The notes under the pieces were generated by a model, which saw only the letters and a program-made list of their open reading frames with translations, did no database searches and was not told the DNA's origin. 64,000 nucleotides of DNA from Tomocerus qinae. Lineage: Eukaryota > Arthropoda > Collembola > Entomobryomorpha > Tomoceridae. The stretch lies in the NCBI GenBank assembly GCA_020055645.1, contig CM034547.1, positions 53,136,909 to 53,200,908 of the forward strand. The letters run 5' to 3'. The position numbers and the translations under genes were made by a program. Positions 19,901-62,615 of the stretch are shown one piece after another; the stretch's first letter is position 1; each line of letters starts with the position of its first letter.

Positions 19901-22308
19901 TCTTGTAAGTGTAAGTAGGAGTGAGGGCAAGTCGCTCAAGTGAACTGAAACTTCTTCAACTGAACTACTAATAGAGAATACAAAAACTTGAGCTAACAAT
20001 AAGAAAGCACTAGGATGCAATTCAACTTTTCTTATTGCAATCTACTTACAGTCTATACCAATTGGGGAAACTTTAACTGATACTTTTATCCTATAGCTAC
20101 TCAAATGCATTGTGCACCTTTTACCTACAGGCACTACACTACAGTACAGACGATTGTTTGCAGTGAAACTTTATTGATAACTTGACTGAATATAAGTGTT
20201 TTCTTATATAATAAAGTACATAGCTTATGTACAGGAAATGCAGCGGAAGAAAACTCAGTTTCTAGAACTACTCTAATGTAGTAGAGTCCTATTTCAATGC
20301 AACTGCATTCAATGAAAAGTTTCGCAGGTGATTTCCTATATAGTCAATGCCTTACTTACAAACTTGTGACCTTAACCTTTATTCCTACAGTTTGCTTCAA
20401 GTAGCTACAGAATAATTTATCTGCCTTACACGGAAAAAAATTTATAATTTATTCTGCAGGGCACGCTGTGTCAAATATTATTAGTGCAAAAGACTTTATT
20501 ACTTTTTCAGAGAAGACAAGTTGCTTTAAAATGTAAATAAATTGTACAGTTCACAAAGATGAAGGTGTAAAAGTATTTCCGGACTCAAAACGATGAAAAA
20601 TTGCTATTTGCACGAGAACCTAAGTTCAGCAAGTACCAGTACATGGACTAACTGAAATTCTAAATGTATTTCTGACGTACGAAATATGATTTGCGAGCTA
20701 GAAATGTCAAGTCAAATAATGTTATGCTCTCAGACTAGAGTTACTACTCTTTACTCCATTCAAAGCACAGTTACTAGAAATCTACCTGTATATAGCATAG
20801 AAAATAATAGTAGCTGCGTAAAATACAAGACGTGGCAATATTGTAAAACAAGAAACCTTTCTCAGTGCTTGCTGAGATGCTATCTGATTTCATGATCTGA
20901 TGATGGTGTTTTGGTTTGCGAGGTTTTATTACTATACTTGGTTATTATGTTATAATATGGATAATGTAACCTAATATGCATATGCTGTGAGCTAAACTTA
21001 ATGTTCATGTACCTTATGCGGATGAAATACTTACTTGAAACGCATAGGTATACACTTTGGTTTGCCTGGAAGGAATGAGGCAATCTGTTATTTTAGAGAA
21101 AATATGGCAAGGTTGGCTTAGGTTAAAAAACTAACGTTAGGAGAAACGATGCGAAACTTTATAACGACGAGGGGGCAATATGAAACTGTCACCGAGAATG
21201 ATTAAGGGTGACTTCGCAGTTACTATCTCTGCGACTCGCAATAAGTTAACGATCAATACTGTGAATACTGAAATAGAGGTAAAGGAAGGAAGGAAAGATC
21301 TACTTACACAATCTTGCGTAACTACTTACTAGCTCCTGCTTATTTTTTAAAGAGTTGCTTTAGTCTTAAGCAACATTACACTGTGCCTTATAACTAGTTA
21401 TGTACTTGTGCCCCTTTCAAGCAACGTCCCTAATACCCTTTATAATCTCTGCTACAGAAAAGTAAGTTATAGAGTATGACTTAACGTTAATGCTGTATTT
21501 ATGTATACCTCGTGTCATTCTCTCCACTGTGCCTTGGAGTTGCCATAATAAAGAACTGGCTTATTTAACCCAAGTCAACTCATTCTAAAGATTTTCTTAT
21601 ATAGCTAGTGAATGGAATACTTAACCTTACGTACTATACTAAGTAGTACACTTTCTTAGTAATGTGCTATGACTTGTATGGTTCTTATTTGTTAATAGGT
21701 ACACGTTGGCAATAAGCTTGAATGGAGCAATAAGGAAACGTATAAGGTACTCCAGATCGCTCCTCGTGGTTTATGTTCGTTGGAGACATGAGGAAAATAA
21801 GTGTTATATGAAAGAAAGATCTACAGCATAAGGCATAACAGACTCACTTTCTCATTAGCATGCAGCCGATGCAAAATCCGAATGTTTTATGGCACTTTTC
21901 AAACTACACTTCTTCAAATTTAAGTAGTAAAACTTAAAGAAAGAAACGTACAGAAGCTAATAATGGCAAATGAGGAACGAAAGACTAATATGCTACGCTT
22001 CCATTCATGCACTTGACTTGCATCCCAACTAAATTTGAAAACAATAAGAAACCTAACACTAATGAAAGAAAATGCAGCTGAAATGCATTCACTGACATCG
22101 ACACAAGTGTGAGGCACTTTTAATACTTTTAGTTTCCTAATCATAGCCGACACTTGGTTTAAACAAAAACATCATATTATATTATTTAAATCATGCCTGC
22201 CATATGAAAGTGCCTTTAAGTAGCATTTTAGTTGTACCTGTCCCATAATAATTTTTCTTTGGAACATCTAGTAAAATACACCGTCATGTCCAAATATTAA
22301 ACGTTTTT

Positions 22309-23743
22309 AGCTCGCCTGATAAAGCGAGCTTATAGAATCGCACAGTCCGTCCGTACGTCCGTACGTCCGTCCGTCCGTCCGTCCGTCCGTCCCCACGCTA
22401 ACTTTCGAAAGCAATGACGGATATTGACCAAACTTGGCAAAAACAATGCCTACGGACCACTGACGATCCCTATTGAATTGGGGGTAAATCGGTCCATTGG
22501 TTACCGAGATACCGCGCGCTCACTTTGTCTTCATTTTGATAGTCAAAGTGATAATTTGCCATTAAATGGACATTGGAAAGTTCAAAGGCGTTTCCTATAA
22601 ATTGTTAGCGGGATAGTATAAAATATATCAATCCGCTTCTACCAAATTTGAGATTTTATAATAAAGCAAATAAAACCGGAAAATAACTATTAGACGATGG
22701 AAAAAAATCTATTTTGGATTTTTATTCTATTTTATAGTCAAATTTTAATTTTTTGATTTCCTCATTTTTAGCTCGCCTGAATAAGGCAGCTTATAGAACC
22801 GCACAGTCTGTCCGTACGTCCGTACGTCCGTCCGTCCGTCCGTACCCACGATAACTTTCGAAAGCAATGATGGATATTGACCAAACTTGGCATAAACTAT
22901 GCCTATGGACTGGTGACGAACCCTATTGATTTTGGTTCAAATCGGTCCATAAGTTGCTGAGATACCGCGCGCTCACTTTGTCTTTATTTGATAGTCAAAG
23001 CAGAAAATGGGCCATAAAAATTTCAATTGTGTTTCCTATTAATTGTTAGCGAGATAGTATAAAATATTTAACTCTGCTTCGACCATATTTAAGATTTTAT
23101 AATAAAGCAAATTAAATAGGAAAATAACTATTATACGATTGAAAAAATCTTTCGCATAACTTTCGAATGCAATGACGGATATTAATTAAACTTGGTAAAA
23201 ACCATACCTATGGGCTGGTGACGATCTCTATTGATTTCGGGCAAATCGCTCCATTAGTTGCTGAGATGCCGTGCGCTCACATTGTCTTCATTTTGATAGT
23301 CAAAGTGAAAAATGGGCATTAAAAAGTTAAATTGCGCTTCCTATAAATTGTTAGAATGATAGTATAAAATATTTCACTCCGTTTCTACCAAATTTATTTT
23401 GAATTTATGTTTCATCGATTTTGATTTTGTATTGATTTTGATAGTAAAGATTAATCAAATTTGATTTACTGTTGATTTTGATATTCAACATTAATCAATT
23501 TTGATTTTCTGCTGATTTTCATAGTCAACAATTATCTATTTTGATTTTCTGTTGATTTTTCAAATGATATAGGTTCGTTTCCTTATAATATCAATGTCTG
23601 AATTTTTAATATGTCGTAGCTACATATATAAAGACTCAATTCTGAAAGCTTGATCAAAATCCATACGTTCGGTTTTGTGTTACGTGCGACTTTTCCTCTA
23701 CCAAAATGTGTACACGACACGGTAACCTTTACTCAGGCGAGCT
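22309..23743 (+). mobile_element. Non-autonomous Helentron-associated-like element (HINE/DINE-1/pearl-type architecture)
   Basis: The element starts with AGCTCGCCTGA (22309-22319), and the exact reverse complement TCAGGCGAGCT lies at 23733-23743. Just inside the left end, AGCTCGC pairs with GCGAGCT to form a 7-bp hairpin. A GTCC/GTAC microsatellite follows (about 22346-22393). Then comes a core beginning AACTTTCGAAAGCAATGACG and ending in an AT-rich stretch. The whole unit, left end included, repeats from 22770 (period about 461 bp, its own microsatellite at about 22806-22845). A third, headless core copy starts near 23155. Short inverted ends, a GTCY-type microsatellite and tandem cores are the known layout of DINE-1/HINE and molluscan pearl elements, which Helentrons mobilise. 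The family assignment is inferred from architecture only. No transposase is encoded. Confidence 0.6.
22346..22393 (+). repeat. GTCC microsatellite inside the HINE-like element
   Basis: Tandem CCGT/GTCC tetramers, with GTAC-containing variants in the first part. A shorter matching run occurs at about 22806-22845 in the second unit. Such tetramers are a hallmark of DINE-1-like elements and are prone to length change. Confidence 0.85.
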
Positions 23744-25371: not shown

Positions 25372-25700
25372 TTTCTTTTAGCAAAAGCGATATAAGTGGA
25401 AGAATACTGGACCGAAAATTACAAGATTGGTATCGCCAGAAAGCCCGATTCTTCATTGACAACGACATTAAGAGACATTTTCATTTGATAGCCTAGGTTG
25501 GAAGTAATTGATGTTTCCCTAAAAAATGGCATTTTTTGGCTATATTTGATGGTTAAAATATCAATTACTTCTAACATAGACCATCAAATGAAAATGTCTC
25601 TTAATGTCGTTGTCAATGAAGAATCGGGCTTTCTGGCGATACCAATCTTGTAATTTTCGGTCCAATATTCTTCCACTTATATCGCTTTTGCCAAAAAAAG
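25372..25700. repeat. Long foldback hairpin, about 141-bp arms
   Basis: The left arm (25372-25512) and right arm (25560-25700) are reverse complements with only scattered mismatches. GCAAAAGCGATATAAGTGGA at the start of the left arm matches TCCACTTATATCGCTTTTGC at the end of the right arm. CATTTGAT...GAAGTAATTGAT near the loop is mirrored by ATCAATTACTTC...ATCAAATG. The spacer is about 47 nt. If transcribed within the pre-mRNA, this would form a long double-stranded stem. It may be a foldback MITE or an inverted duplication. No clear target-site duplication was found. Confidence 0.85.
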
Positions 25701-41559: not shown

Positions 41560-41767
41560 AAATTCTGTACAGCCATTTTTCAATAAACTTTCGGCAGAAT
41601 ATATTGAAAGGACGATCAAAATGAGTTCCCCTGCAAGGAAACCTCACAGTCAGAATCATCACAACAGCCGAAGTGATTTTGCTTCGACATTGAAGAAATG
41701 GAGTGCGCCCATCCCACCTGTGCTCTCTCGAAAACTTGGACGGGCATCAGATTCTCCCTTGGGAAAG
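41560..41767 (+). CDS. KIF26/CG14535-like kinesin, coding exon 3 (pre-motor linker)
   Basis: A 208-nt exon with an excellent acceptor (TTTGTTTCATTTCAG) and donor (AAG|GTGAGT). Its first base completes the Arg codon begun in exon 2, and it leaves in phase 0. The 69 full residues open N-S-V-Q-P-F-F-N-K-L, run through a basic, polar stretch (SSPARKPHSQNHH), and end KKWSAPIPPVLSRKLG then RASDSPLGK. In KIF26A/B and fly CG14535, as I recall them, a P-x-P-P-C-L-L-R...LGK/GMGK motif sits immediately before the KVKVMLR start of the motor. The P-I-P-P-V-L-S-R...L-G-K here matches that position and joins in frame to exon 4. This linker is the best evidence that exons 3 and 4 belong together despite the 20.6 kb between them. 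Confidence 0.88.
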
Positions 41768-42046: not shown

Positions 42047-42050
42047 TTAT
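42047..42050. repeat. Left TTAT direct repeat (putative target-site duplication)
   Basis: TTAT immediately precedes the TGTCAACGTG start of the foldback element. The same four bases follow its other end at 46436-46439. A 4-bp match could be coincidental, but both copies abut the exact ends of the long inverted repeats. Confidence 0.55.
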
Positions 42051-42324
42051 TGTCAACGTGAAACAGTCCCAAGCCACACAGAGCTGACTGTACCACGTCT
42101 TCCCCATACTCACAAGTCAAACACAAATGTCCATTCTAATTACTACACCTTATTCCTCTTCCTTTCCTACATTACACATGTAGTTCAGTGGTCAGAACAA
42201 TTGCCCGGTTTGCGATAGACACTGGTTTCGATTCCAGTCGTGTGTATTCAATTTTTGCCTTCCTTTACCTATCTAACTTCCTAATTTATTCTAATTTACC
42301 TTAACTCACCTTCCCTCATTCTGC
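42051..42324 (+). repeat. Left terminal inverted repeat of the foldback element
   Basis: 274 bp from TGTCAACGTG to CATTCTGC, nearly identical to the reverse complement of 46161-46435. It contains the first tRNA-like unit. It carries a private G (AAATGTCC) where other A modules have C (AAATCTCC). Confidence 0.85.
42173..42246 (+). pseudogene. tRNA-like Pol III unit, copy 1
   Basis: It folds as a complete cloverleaf. The acceptor ACACATG pairs with CGTGTGT (one G-T pair, extendable by an outer T-A to 8 bp). TA fills positions 8-9. The D-arm is GTTC/GAAC around AGTGGTCA. The anticodon stem ATTGC/GCGAT encloses the loop CCGGTTT. The T-arm ACTGG/CCAGT has an 8-nt loop TTTCGATT. Box A (TAGTTCAGTGG) fits the Pol III consensus, and box B is close (GTTTCGATTCC). 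A TTTTT tract at 42252-42256 would terminate Pol III. Against a working tRNA: position 33 is C rather than T, the T-loop has one extra base, and the nominal GGT anticodon (Thr) is normally absent from eukaryotic sets. I read it as tRNA-derived, possibly transcribed, not decoding. Confidence 0.7.
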
Positions 42325-42714
42325 TCATATACTTACCTCTGAGACATCCATCCTGGAGAACTTATAAGCTCACTTACAAGACCGCGGGGTAATAATGTAT
42401 ATCACTTCGATATACTTCGGTGTATGTGATGTGCTCTGTGCCCTTTCCTGTATCTTTCATTAGCATTAGCGAGTAGCCTGACTGACCTCCACCATAGGCA
42501 GTCCAATGGCATATATAACTAATCTCTTCAAACCCGACTAACAGTATCAAACCGTACCTAAGCACATCAAGATGCGAGGGGACCGGGGGGAATGTCAACG
42601 TGAAACAGTCCCAAGCCACACAGAGCTGACTGTACCACGTCTTCCCCATACTCACAAGTCAAACACAAATCTCCATTCTAATTACTACACCTTATTCCTC
42701 TTCCTTTCCTACAT

Positions 42715-42788
42715 TACACATGTAGTTCAGTGGTCAGAACAATTGCCCGGTTTGCGATAGACACTGGTTTCGATTCCAGTCGTGTGTA
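42715..42788 (+). pseudogene. tRNA-like Pol III unit, copy 2
   Basis: Identical to copy 1 over the whole cloverleaf, followed by the same CAATTTTT terminator context. Lies in the second, complete A/B unit. Confidence 0.7.
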
Positions 42789-43255
42789 TTCAATTTTTGC
42801 CTTCCTTTACCTATCTAACTTCCTAATTTATTCTAATTTACCTTAACTCACCTTCCCTCATTCTGCTCATATACTTACCTCTGAGACATCCATCCTGGAG
42901 AACTTATAAGCTCACTTACAAGATGCGGGGTAATAATGTATATCACTTCGATATACTTCGGTGTATGTGATGTGCTCTGTGCCCTTTCCTGTATCTTTCA
43001 TTAGCATTAGCGAGTAGCCTGACTGACCTCCACCATAGGCAGTCCAATGGCATATATAACTAATCTCTTCAAACCCGACTAACAGTATCAAACCGTACCT
43101 AAGCACATCAAGATGCGAGGGGACCGGGGGGAATGTCAACGTGAAACAGTCCCAAGCCACACAGAGCTGACTGTACCACGTCTTCCCCATACTCACAAGT
43201 CAAACACAAATCTCCATTCTAATTACTACACCTTATTCCTCTTCCTTTCCTACAT

Positions 43256-43290
43256 TACACATGTAGTTCAGTGGTCAGAACAATTGCCCG
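43256..43290 (+). pseudogene. tRNA-like unit, truncated copy 3
   Basis: Only the 5' half is present: acceptor strand, D-arm and anticodon 5' stem, ending in the anticodon loop at GCCCG. The next unit starts there (GTCAACGTG at 43291). The break shares a GT with the joined sequence, consistent with microhomology-mediated or slippage joining. Box B is missing, so this copy should not support Pol III transcription. Confidence 0.75.
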
Positions 43291-43411
43291 GTCAACGTGA
43301 AACAGTCCCAAGCCACACAGAGCTGACTGTACCACGTCTTCCCCATACTCACAAGTCAAACACAAATCTCCATTCTAATTACTACACCTTATTCCTCTTC
43401 CTTTCCTACAT

Positions 43412-43485
43412 TACACATGTAGTTCAGTGGTCAGAACAATTGCCCGGTTTGCGATAGACACTGGTTTCGATTCCAGTCGTGTGTA
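43412..43485 (+). pseudogene. tRNA-like Pol III unit, copy 4
   Basis: Full cloverleaf identical to copy 1, with the downstream T5 tract. It lies in the unit that carries three consecutive B modules. Confidence 0.7.
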
Positions 43486-43615
43486 TTCAATTTTTGCCTT
43501 CCTTTACCTATCTAACTTCCTAATTTTATTCTAATTTACCTTAACTCACCTTCCCTCATTCTGCTCATATACTTACCTCTGAGACATCCATCCTGGAGAA
43601 CTTATAAGCTCACTT

Positions 43616-44224
43616 ACAAGATGCGGGGTAATAATGTATATCACTTCGATATACTTCGGTGTATGTGATGTGCTCTGTGCCCTTTCCTGTATCTTTCATT
43701 AGCATTAGCGAGTAGCCTGACTGACCTCCACCATAGGCAGTCCAATGGCATATATATATAACTAATCTCTTCAAACCCGACTAACAGTATCAAACCGTAC
43801 CTAAGCACTTACAAGACCGCGGGGTAATAATGTATATCACTTCGATATACTTCGGTGTATGTGATGTGCTCTGTGCCCTTTCCTGTATCTTTCATTAGCA
43901 TTAGCGAGTAGCCTGACTGACCTCCACCATAGGCAGTCCAATGGCATATATATATAACTAATCTCTTCAAACCCGACTAACAGTATCAAACCGTACCTAA
44001 GCACTTACAAGACCGCGGGGTAATAATGTATATCACTTCGATATACTTCGGTGTATGTGATGTGCTCTGTGCCCTTTCCTGTATCTTTCATTAGCATTAG
44101 CGAGTAGCCTGACTGACCTCCACCATAGGCAGTCCAATGGCATATATAACTAATCTCTTCAAACCCGACTAACAGTATCAAACCGTACCTAAGCACATCA
44201 AGATGCGAGGGGACCGGGGGGAAT
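43616..44224 (+). repeat. Triplicated B module, period about 196 bp
   Basis: Three B modules in a row. The first two end at CTAAGCAC (43808 and 44004) and fuse straight to TTACAAGACC of the next. The third runs on into the normal CATCAAGATGCGAGGGGACC tail. The joint uses CAC, which is shared by the B end (AAGCAC) and the A/B border (GCTCAC), as expected for unequal exchange at a short homology. The first two carry a longer TA run (GGCATATATATATAAC) than the third. Each B module contains the small hairpin GTATATC-acttc-GATATAC. Confidence 0.85.
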
Positions 44225-44345
44225 GTCAACGTGAAACAGTCCCAAGCCACACAGAGCTGACTGTACCACGTCTTCCCCATACTCACAAGTCAAACACAAA
44301 TCTCCATTCTAATTACTACACCTTATTCCTCTTCCTTTCCTACAT

Positions 44346-44419
44346 TACACATGTAGTTCAGTGGTCAGAACAATTGCCCGGTTTGCGATAGACACTGGTT
44401 TCGATTCCAGTCGTGTGTA
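44346..44419 (+). pseudogene. tRNA-like Pol III unit, copy 5
   Basis: Full cloverleaf identical to copy 1, in a unit that has the A module only (44225-44552). Confidence 0.7.
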
Positions 44420-44673
44420 TTCAATTTTTGCCTTCCTTTACCTATCTAACTTCCTAATTTATTCTAATTTACCTTAACTCACCTTCCCTCATTCTGCTCA
44501 TATACTTACCTCTGAGACATCCATCCTGGAGAACTTATAAGCTCACTTACATGTCAACGTGAAACAGTCCCAAGCCACACAGAGCTGACTGTACCACGTC
44601 TTCCCCATACTCACAAGTCAAACACAAATCTCCATTCTAATTACTACACCTTATTCCTCTTCCTTTCCTACAT

Positions 44674-44747
44674 TACACATGTAGTTCAGTGGTCAGAACA
44701 ATTGCCCGGTTTGCGATAGACACTGGTTTCGATTCCAGTCGTGTGTA
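44674..44747 (+). pseudogene. tRNA-like Pol III unit, copy 6
   Basis: Full cloverleaf identical to copy 1, in the unit followed by two B modules. The downstream A sequence has the extra-T variant TAATTTTATT. Confidence 0.7.
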
Positions 44748-44879
44748 TTCAATTTTTGCCTTCCTTTACCTATCTAACTTCCTAATTTTATTCTAATTTA
44801 CCTTAACTCACCTTCCCTCATTCTGCTCATATACTTACCTCTGAGACATCCATCCTGGAGAACTTATAAGCTCACTTAC

Positions 44880-45291
44880 AAGACCGCGGGGTAATAATGT
44901 ATATCACTTCGATATACTTCGGTGTATGTGATGTGCTCTGTGCCCTTTCCTGTATCTTTCATTAGCATTAGCGAGTAGCCTGACTGACCTCCACCATAGG
45001 CAGTCCAATGGCATATATATATAACTAATCTCTTCAAACCCGACTAACAGTATCAAACCGTACCTAAGCACTTACAAGACCGCGGGGTAATAATGTATAT
45101 CACTTCGATATACTTCGGTGTATGTGATGTGCTCTGTGCCCTTTCCTGTATCTTTCATTAGCATTAGCGAGTAGCCTGACTGACCTCCACCATAGGCAGT
45201 CCAATGGCATATATAACTAATCTCTTCAAACCCGACTAACAGTATCAAACCGTACCTAAGCACATCAAGATGCGAGGGGACCGGGGGGAAT
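44880..45291 (+). repeat. Duplicated B module
   Basis: Two B modules joined through the same CTAAGCAC-TTACAAG junction as in the triplication at 43616-44224. The first again carries the long TA run and the second the short one. The shared pattern suggests one segment was copied from the other. Confidence 0.85.
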
Positions 45292-45412
45292 GTCAACGTG
45301 AAACAGTCCCAAGCCACACAGAGCTGACTGTACCACGTCTTCCCCATACTCACAAGTCAAACACAAATCTCCATTCTAATTACTACACCTTATTCCTCTT
45401 CCTTTCCTACAT

Positions 45413-45486
45413 TACACATGTAGTTCAGTGGTCAGAACAATTGCCCGGTTTGCGATAGACACTGGTTTCGATTCCAGTCGTGTGTA
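45413..45486 (+). pseudogene. tRNA-like Pol III unit, copy 7
   Basis: Full cloverleaf identical to copy 1, in a complete 542-bp A/B unit (45292-45833). Confidence 0.7.
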
Positions 45487-45954
45487 TTCAATTTTTGCCT
45501 TCCTTTACCTATCTAACTTCCTAATTTATTCTAATTTACCTTAACTCACCTTCCCTCATTCTGCTCATATACTTACCTCTGAGACATCCATCCTGGAGAA
45601 CTTATAAGCTCACTTACAAGACCGCGGGGTAATAATGTATATCACTTCGATATACTTCGGTGTATGTGATGTGCTCTGTGCCCTTTCCTGTATCTTTCAT
45701 TAGCATTAGCGAGTAGCCTGACTGACCTCCACCATAGGCAGTCCAATGGCATATATAACTAATCTCTTCAAACCCGACTAACAGTATCAAACCGTACCTA
45801 AGCACATCAAGATGCGAGGGGACCGGGGGGAATGTCAACGTGAAACAGTCCCAAGCCACACAGAGCTGACTGTACCACGTCTTCCCCATACTCACAAGTC
45901 AAACACAAATCTCCATTCTAATTACTACACCTTATTCCTCTTCCTTTCCTACAT

Positions 45955-46028
45955 TACACATGTAGTTCAGTGGTCAGAACAATTGCCCGGTTTGCGATAG
46001 ACACTGGTTTCGATTCCAGTCGTGTGTA
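45955..46028 (+). pseudogene. tRNA-like Pol III unit, copy 8
   Basis: Full cloverleaf identical to copy 1, in the last direct unit. This unit pairs with the inverted arm to form a long hairpin. Confidence 0.7.
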
Positions 46029-46160
46029 TTCAATTTTTGCCTTCCTTTACCTATCTAACTTCCTAATTTATTCTAATTTACCTTAACTCACCTTCCCTCA
46101 TTCTGCTCATATACTTACCTCTGAGACATCCATCCTGGAGAACTTATAAGCTCACTTACA

Positions 46161-46435
46161 GCAGAATGAGGGAAGGTGAGTTAAGGTAAATTAGAATAAA
46201 ATTAGGAAGTTAGATAGGTAAAGGAAGGCAAAAATTGAATACACACGACTGGAATCGAAACCAGTGTCTATCGCAAACCGGGCAATTGTTCTGACCACTG
46301 AACTACATGTGTAATGTAGGAAAGGAAGAGGAATAAGGTGTAGTAATTAGAATGGAGATTTGTGTTTGACTTGTGAGTATGGGGAAGACGTGGTACAGTC
46401 AGCTCTGTGTGGCTTGGGACTGTTTCACGTTGACA
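46161..46435 (-). repeat. Right terminal inverted repeat of the foldback element
   Basis: 275 bp, the inverted copy of the A module from TGTCAACGTG to TTCTGC. It has the TAATTTTATT variant (extra T) seen also in the units starting at 43291 and 44553, which suggests it was copied from that subfamily rather than from unit 1 or unit 8. Confidence 0.85.
46240..46313 (-). pseudogene. tRNA-like Pol III unit, inverted copy 9
   Basis: Reverse-complement copy of the same 74-nt cloverleaf, in the right terminal inverted repeat. Its T5 terminator appears as AAAAA just to the left on the + strand. Pol III transcription from here would run leftwards, towards and antisense to copy 8. Confidence 0.7.
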
Positions 46436-46439
46436 TTAT
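46436..46439. repeat. Right TTAT direct repeat (putative target-site duplication)
   Basis: Second copy of the four bases that precede the element at 42047-42050, directly abutting its right end. Confidence 0.55.
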
Positions 46440-62411: not shown

Positions 62412-62615
62412 GTAAAAGTGATGCTGAGGGTGTGCGACAATGCGGAAGAAGTAAGCGGAAGTGGCATCCTTGGGGTAGACCAGAGGAGAAAACAAGTGAC
62501 CCTTATAGATCCAGGAGGGAGTGGACCTGGGACTACACCAGAAGAACGACGAGTTGGAGTTTCTGCACCGAAAATGTTTGCGTTTGATGGAATCTTTGGA
62601 GAAGATGATGATCAG
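62412..62615 (+). CDS. KIF26/CG14535-like kinesin, coding exon 4 (start of motor domain)
   Basis: A 204-nt, 68-codon exon in phase 0 at both ends, with a strong acceptor (TTTCCCTCCTTAG). It starts V-K-V-M-L-R-V, the first motor strand, then shows RRKQVTLIDP and ends SAPKMFAFDGIFGEDDDQ. The FAFDGIF block is the family form of the conserved kinesin F-x-F-D-x-x-F motif. The KQVTL...APKMFAFD combination is typical of KIF26A/B and fly CG14535 rather than of conventional kinesins. KIF26 and VAB-8 proteins are atypical kinesins that bind microtubules with little or no ATPase activity and act in cell migration, axon growth and signalling. The P-loop and switch motifs should lie on later exons outside the window, so ATPase competence cannot be judged. 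The donor CAG|GTCCAT is weak after position +2. Homologues continue past this Gln, which supports the boundary. Confidence 0.92.

Follow-up and report, generated by a model that had tools for sequence, protein, structure and literature searches.

What kind of genetic element places eight tRNA-like sequences in a single array? This question is raised by a stretch of the genome of the springtail Tomocerus qinae (assembly GCA_020055645.1, contig CM034547.1, positions 53,136,909 to 53,200,908), and the whole of this stretch, 64,000 nucleotides long, is called the window here, with all positions given in its own numbering. An earlier note, made from the letters of this DNA alone, took the sequences for potentially transcribed, tRNA-derived units lying in the inverted repeats of a DNA-type foldback element. 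We arrive at a different host. With a probability of roughly 0.88, the array is a miniature, non-coding long terminal repeat (LTR) retrotransposon (terminal-repeat retrotransposon in miniature, TRIM), which bears the tRNA-like unit inside its LTR. Thus, the part of the earlier proposal that placed a real tRNA-like sequence of the RNA polymerase III (Pol III) type within a mobile element holds, while the nature of that element has to be revised.

The tRNA-like units are not a product of chance. ARAGORN, run on the whole window, reported eight of them, all within one array: seven on the forward strand (42173..42247, 42715..42789, 43412..43486, 44346..44420, 44674..44748, 45413..45487 and 45955..46029) and one on the reverse strand, within an inverted LTR (46239..46313). 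The same eight were matched by the Rfam family RF00005 with 48.3 bits and E=3e-07 each. ARAGORN found no tRNA in any of 5000 dinucleotide-shuffled copies of the LTR module. Neither did it find any in 50 shuffles of the window or, once the array had been masked, in the unshuffled window. All eight units are letter-identical and therefore amount to a single observation, copied eight times. Each lies in the middle of an LTR (referred to as module A), and a ninth LTR module (43134-43291) ends inside the unit. The structural description given previously was confirmed in its main points, as the four stems are fully paired (21 of 21 pairs, including two G-U), box A (TAGTTCAGTGG) is present, box B (GGTTTCGATTCC) departs from the consensus by one extra T, and a run of five T (T5), a Pol III-type terminator, begins 6 nt past the Rfam-matched unit (42252..42256, forward strand, LTR positions 202-206 for unit 1). 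The unconstrained minimum-energy fold of the unit is the cloverleaf; its energy is unremarkable (z = -1.0, with 28 of 200 shuffles folding equally well or better).

The array forms an insertion (42051-46435) between two TTAT repeats, which are its left (42047..42050) and right (46436..46439) target-site duplications; randomly chosen pairs of flank positions agree over 4 bp in 0.56% of trials, which is the chance per site. The insertion is composed of two modules. Module A is the LTR, 328 bp long in variant 1 and 329 bp in variant 2, which runs from TGTCAACG to CTTACA and has the termini TGT and ACA. Module B is the internal part with a 3' polypurine tract; it measures 213-214 bp if complete, and its 3' end, GGGGACCGGGGGGAA, abuts A. 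If B* denotes an internal region without the polypurine end, the order of modules is A B A B A(cut) A B* B* B A A B* B A B A, followed by an inverted, 3'-truncated A. The modules described earlier as inverted repeats are thus mostly direct repeats, and the last one alone is inverted. The 3' end of A is sharp, as CTTACA continues into B five times, into a complete A once and into the inverted A once.

Complete LTRs of variant 1 are located at 42051..42378 (TGTCAACG...CTTACA), 42593..42920, 44224..44551, 45291..45618 and 45833..46160, all on the forward strand. The third of these stands end to end with the next LTR (CTTACA followed directly by TGTCAACG), which is a complete LTR of variant 2 (44552..44880, forward), and the 3' end (ACA) of the last is the inversion junction. 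Two further forward LTRs are fused to each other: the one cut inside the tRNA-like unit (43134..43291) and a variant-2 LTR without its first one or two bases (43292..43618). The inverted LTR (46161..46435, reverse strand) is of variant 2 and is missing the final 53 or 54 bases; base 46160 fits both sides of the junction and can be assigned to either LTR, and the U3 end of the inverted LTR is the outer right end of the array.

Internal regions, all on the forward strand, occupy 42379..42592, 42921..43133 (with the start variant AGATGCGG) and 45619..45832, while 43619..44223 holds three of them (starts at 43619, 43814 and 44010) and 44881..45290 holds two (starts at 44881 and 45077). The first two of the three, and the first of the two, have no polypurine end, and in the group of three this is consistent with deletion of the LTRs between them. 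The polypurine tract GGGGACCGGGGGGAA stands directly 5' of an LTR at 42578..42592 (forward), with further copies ending at 43133, 44223, 45290 and 45832; 13 of its 15 bases are purines, a level reached by 1.6% of 15-mers outside the array. At its other end, where a primer-binding site is expected, B begins in one of two forms, AGACCGCGG (42379) or AGATGCGG (42921), and the latter form resembles CAAGATGCGAGGGG, located before the polypurine tract.

Is this organization peculiar to the window? A search of the same genome (334 Mb, 115 contigs) yielded at least 42 matches of A and at least 22 of B, and 18 stretches were fetched, two weak A fragments (C1:72975782 and C1:51176299) being left out. 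Single A-B-A copies, 870 bp each, were found four times (L009, L011, L013, L014), and their paired LTRs are identical over 328 bp in all four cases, which indicates recent insertion. Two copies are tandem (ABABA in L015, ABABABA in L012), three are solo LTRs (L016, L018 and, at 76% identity, L020), one is a foldback array (L010, contig C4) and one consists of B with one A (L017); the remaining 7 of the 18 stretches are partial or fragments. Among the 11 insertions with both outer ends intact, window included, 10 have perfect 4-bp target-site duplications, namely TTAT in the window and GTAC, GTAG, ACTT, ATAT, CTAG, GTAT, GAGT, ATAT and ATAT elsewhere. The polypurine end of B precedes the LTR at all 12 junctions of B with A in L009-L015, at the one in L017 and at the five in the window, in the form GGGGACC, 5-7 G, AA, with one change in L017. 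These copies directly show internal parts framed by two LTRs, solo LTRs, target duplications, paired LTRs without differences and, within arrays, mixed LTR variants. One older copy (L017:1047-1331) has its 5' LTR missing, and unrelated sequence with repeated GGCC-type motifs adjoins the start of its B. Exact-pattern scans gave no matches in viral contigs (three patterns) or in prokaryote contigs (one pattern).

The assignment to TRIMs follows from these features taken together. Two direct LTRs enclose a short non-coding internal part, and the total of 870 bp lies under the approximately 1000 bp usual for this group; the LTRs are identical at insertion, solo LTRs occur, the LTR termini are of the TG...CA type (TGT...ACA), the target duplication is of 4 bp at 10 of the 11 insertions and a polypurine tract precedes the 3' LTR. 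Moreover, the TRIMs named Helenus are characterized by an LTR in which a tRNA-derived sequence provides boxes A and B and, in animals, by a 4-bp duplication, both of which are seen here; a primer-binding site is a further defining feature of Helenus, and no canonical one was found in this element. By its structure the element would therefore be of Helenus type, a likeness that does not imply descent from the published families. An LTR element carrying a tRNA-like sequence is a kind already known, and a tRNA head outside a short interspersed nuclear element (SINE), regarded as an oddity in the earlier note, loses this status, as tRNA-like sequences in the LTRs of miniature elements have been published as Helenus (PMC10886601).

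Two other identities could be proposed for the array. Foldback elements have inverted ends made of repeated modules, and the window insertion might accordingly be seen as a DNA-type foldback transposon with long inverted repeats of tandem modules. Its outer ends are indeed inverted and share about 99% identity along roughly 276 bp (274 of 275 aligned bases, with one 1-base gap), and it is flanked by a 4-bp duplication. However, inverted ends are not what the mobile copies have in general: most of them are direct (A-B-A, A(BA)n) or solo A, likewise with 4-bp target-site duplications, which is the organization of an LTR retrotransposon, and the left and the right end of A both act as outer ends. 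Besides, none of the three array reading frames tested gave a Pfam family above the cut-off, one frame having three sub-threshold matches. We thus regard a DNA transposon as highly improbable. The second possibility is a genuine tRNA-Thr(GGT) gene cluster, amplified by a mobile element and giving functional tRNA. A working tRNA needs U33 and a T-loop of 7 nt. The unit has neither, since its anticodon loop, CCGGTTT, carries C at position 33 instead of T and its T-loop, TTTCGATT, is 8 nt long; both features had been noticed before, and with the decay seen in older copies they make it probable that this is no decoding tRNA. Nor does the cloverleaf appear to be under selection in older copies, although dead copies provide a weak test of this. 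For these reasons a functional tRNA was rejected and the gene cluster appears very unlikely, even though ARAGORN does call tRNA-Thr(GGT) with complete stems, T5 directly follows the unit and a few Helenus families could encode tRNA-Thr (PMC10886601).

If the element is a TRIM, what may the tRNA-like unit do in it? Judging from its motifs, the unit in the middle of the LTR probably serves as an internal Pol III promoter with its own T5 terminator, which is the most likely role for it. In the plant TRIM Cassandra, transcription begins within the 5S sequence of one LTR and finishes within that of the other (PMC10886601, introduction), and by analogy an RNA would begin here at the unit of one LTR, read past T5 and stop at the T5 of the next LTR. 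Such a read-through RNA would carry the unit at both ends, which would provide the R region required for reverse transcription, and the enzymes of an autonomous LTR element, a putative helper, would then copy the TRIM and insert it with a 4-bp duplication. In the variant-1 LTR, T5 is the sole run of four or more T, and the internal region B has none. The 537-nt read-through stretch of the variant-1 unit accordingly contains no run of four T besides T5, and TTTT is absent from 10 of 1172 stretches of 537 nt outside the array. Variant-2 LTRs have a second T run, TTTT, at LTR position 235. We considered depletion of T runs as proof of selection by Pol III and rejected it, as the signal is only weak and is broken by the variant-2 LTRs.

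Older copies allowed us to ask which part of the unit is retained. Five of them with stem changes keep 19, 20, 19, 16 and 17 of the 21 pairs, which is the level of random change (P 0.12-1.0, significant in none of the five). As stem pairs are lost as fast as by random change, there is no sign of selection on the cloverleaf, a weak test given that older copies are dead and tell little of the active source element; nor is there evidence of a structured RNA product from the unit. There is modest evidence that the promoter is kept in older copies: in six rows that differ from the main form inside the unit, box A is unchanged in four and the T-loop is kept in five.

The inverted end of the array still needs to be explained, the more so as it is not unique. 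In the window, the inversion comes directly after the ACA of the last complete A, and the inverted A that begins there runs from its position 276 back to its U3 end and is followed by TTAT. A second foldback-ended array of the element was observed on contig C4 (L010:501-2957), with GTAC duplications. There, too, the last complete A stops at ACA; what follows is B in inverted orientation, entered at position 172, then a full-length inverted A and finally GTAC, also present at the left end. U3 ends on both sides with perfect duplications are thus found in two of the eight insertions with two or more LTRs. Both inversions begin at a complete LTR 3' end, with different partner sites (LTR position 276 and B position 172), and in both copies the inverted LTR is of variant 2 and its neighbour of variant 1. 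LTR variants are mixed in three of the four arrays with three or more LTRs and in none of the four single copies.

Inversion at complete LTR ends and mixed LTR variants suggest that cDNAs from more than one source element were joined. We would give about even odds to the idea that in both foldback arrays several cDNAs were joined before or at integration, in a manner resembling autointegration. In this scenario, cDNAs from more than one source element would come together prior to integration, the complete U5 end of one would attack an internal site of another, lying in inverted orientation, in an integrase-type reaction, and the two U3 ends left over would then be used for concerted integration. 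A broader and more tentative proposal, to which we give less than an even chance, is that joined, self-attacked TRIM cDNAs re-enter the genome as foldback arrays with Pol III units pointing both ways; the integrase would accept two U3 ends, and a foldback class would thus be born of LTR retrotransposons rather than of DNA transposons.

The same arrays could have arisen differently. Single TRIMs may have grown at their insertion sites, through unequal crossing-over or recombination with incoming cDNA, while the inverted part was added by a later local inversion or a switch of repair template. On one hand, plant Cassandra TRIM arrays have been linked to recombination (PMC7215508), and the three junctions of B* with the following B resemble, by eye, deletion of an LTR across a short match (CAC). 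On the other hand, three of the four arrays mix LTR variants known from other insertions while single copies have identical LTRs, and such mixing could be explained by recombination with incoming cDNA, but not by simple in-place duplication. Moreover, one junction consists of two complete LTRs end to end, and a later inversion would reach the exact U3 end with its duplication only by accident, and would have to do so twice. Enlargement of this kind seems to us less likely than not; in-place recombination remains a rival for the direct repeats and, with just two examples available, for the inverted ends as well. It might also be assumed that a second TRIM inserted independently into the first and so gave rise to the inverted LTR, an idea that agrees with the opposite orientation of the right end and with its different LTR variant. 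After a nested insertion, however, the remainder of the split LTR and a duplication of its own should lie on the far side, whereas the left outer end directly adjoins the same TTAT, and the copy on contig C4 behaves alike with GTAC. We find this explanation hardly credible.

Several points weigh against our own reading, that is, a TRIM transcribed from its tRNA-like unit and, in two cases, joined before integration. A canonical primer-binding site was not found, as no TGG occurs in the first 60 nt past the LTR on the forward strand in seven B copies, or at the other end of B on the reverse strand in one B copy checked. As for base-pairing between B and the tRNA-like unit of the element itself, 49% of 300 shuffles do equally well, and self-priming by the unit was thus discarded as no better than shuffles. 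The absence of further T4 runs from a variant-1 unit gives weak support, as 9% of dinucleotide shuffles are also without them and A4 runs are absent too. T5 in the 5' LTR should halt most Pol III transcripts, and variant-2 LTRs have a TTTT in addition. One of the 11 insertions, L009, has no clean duplication, the single miss in this set; loss of one of two neighbouring ACA copies might conceal an ACAT duplication in its sequence ...TTACATGTCAGG. Finally, the joining mechanism rests on two junctions in two foldback copies.

The inversion junction in the window has some properties of its own. A perfect 41-bp inverted repeat with a 52-nt loop is present at 46067-46200 and, after a one-base gap, continues for 234 bp more; the inner 104 nt of this hairpin form 26 pairs (z = -9.6). 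Matches to microRNA precursors at this place (MIR7533, mir-5583, MIR815) fell far short of the gathering scores and are explained by the perfect inverted repeat. With so long an inverted repeat at its right end, the array might also give rise to double-stranded RNA.

The array is located in an intron of about 20 kb, on the same strand as the host gene, between two coding exons of a KIF26-like gene. The upstream exon (41621..41767, forward) was defined by its splice sites and reading frame, and the next one (62412..62612, forward, the tested part) by similarity to Folsomia candida LOC110843535, to which 67 residues align at 87% identity; the protein ranked second by E-value reaches 56% identity at 99% query coverage. 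This second exon gave 32 matches among 53 candidates, many of them named KIF26 or CG14535 kinesins. In the Folsomia candida protein, the product of exon 41621-41767 stands directly before that of 62412-62612, and because the two are side by side there, the array is placed inside the KIF26-like intron. The host exons alone gave no Pfam or NCBIfam family above the cut-off, and no solved structure was found for the one exon examined in this way. Elsewhere in the window, a sequence of about 330 bp (25373-25699) matches its own reverse complement at 88% and is possibly a palindromic element or one resembling a miniature inverted-repeat transposable element; diverged repeats with 80-83% identity between copies and (GTCC)n stretches lie at 22304-23396, and a separate 40-bp tandem repeat of 3.7 copies at 23414-23559.

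These findings extend tRNA-carrying TRIMs to a springtail, beyond the hosts tabulated in the Helenus paper (PMC10886601), and the copies are young enough for paired LTRs to be identical. The arthropod entries of that table are Hymenoptera only, and the words 'Collembola' and 'springtail' are absent from the paper's main text, as is 'TRIM' from the main text of a springtail genome paper (PMC5644144). In literature from 2024 on, we found Helenus TRIMs in PMC10886601 only, and no title on foldback TRIMs appeared in the literature on autointegration, inverted LTRs and tandem arrays, with most subscription journals lying outside the coverage in both cases. Within the literature covered, what is new is chiefly the pair of foldback-ended insertions, and besides them the springtail host and the lack of a canonical primer site. 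There is also a practical side, as tRNA finders will count false tRNA-Thr genes in genomes with such elements. In another springtail genome, 548 serine tRNA copies were reported and SINEs suspected (PMC5644144); such elements might also account for these copies, which is a conjecture. If the proposed origin of the foldback ends is true, these two natural insertions preserve events that usually stay hidden in retroviral autointegration, and they show that an integrated LTR element can have a U3 end on either side.

How does the element compare with known systems? The closest in structure is Helenus (TRIMp3; Kojima 2024), described as miniature LTR elements whose LTRs contain a tRNA-like sequence and which have a polypurine tract and a primer-binding site (PMC10886601). 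Common to both are the lack of coding capacity, a size below about 1.3 kb, boxes A and B in the LTR, the polypurine tract, a tRNA-like sequence which is probably no working tRNA, and tandem arrays, noted for Helenus in one zebrafish family, LTR-11_DR. Animal Helenus elements have 4-bp target-site duplications, as here, with LTRs of up to 323 bp (328 bp here) and a total of 311-1263 bp (870 bp here). No pairing with the element's own tRNA-like unit was found by Kojima either, and most fungal Helenus elements have an internal-tRNA primer site. Further traits assigned to this group are mobilisation by a Gypsy-type element with a shared primer site and, for TRIMp3, transcription by Pol III. The window element differs in having no recognisable 3'-CCA primer site and in its two foldback-ended copies, and the two are likened by structure only. 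Cassandra shares with it a Pol III promoter of a small RNA gene inside the LTR and tandem arrays of LTR and internal parts, but that promoter comes from 5S rRNA rather than tRNA, the hosts are plants and the search pattern quoted for it includes a primer site starting with TGG (PMC7215508). PbTRIM of the harvester ant is likewise found in an arthropod, has been active recently and shows solo LTRs and AT-rich 4-bp duplications; it differs by a leucine-tRNA primer site (plant TRIMs use methionine tRNA), no tRNA-like sequence was noted for its LTR, and 'tandem' is absent from the main text of its description (PMC3532108). In retroviral autointegration, the viral DNA is attacked at an internal site by a processed 3' end of its LTR and becomes internally rearranged, reference 11 of PMC3148978 indicating an inverted segment by its title; that process is described as suicidal and as yielding circles (PMC3148978). 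For the springtail element, by contrast, we propose that the rearranged DNA was integrated through its two U3 ends. Foldback elements share with it the inverted ends of repeated modules, but in the TRIM described here the fold-back shape is taken by only two of eight multi-LTR insertions, and the ends act as LTR ends.

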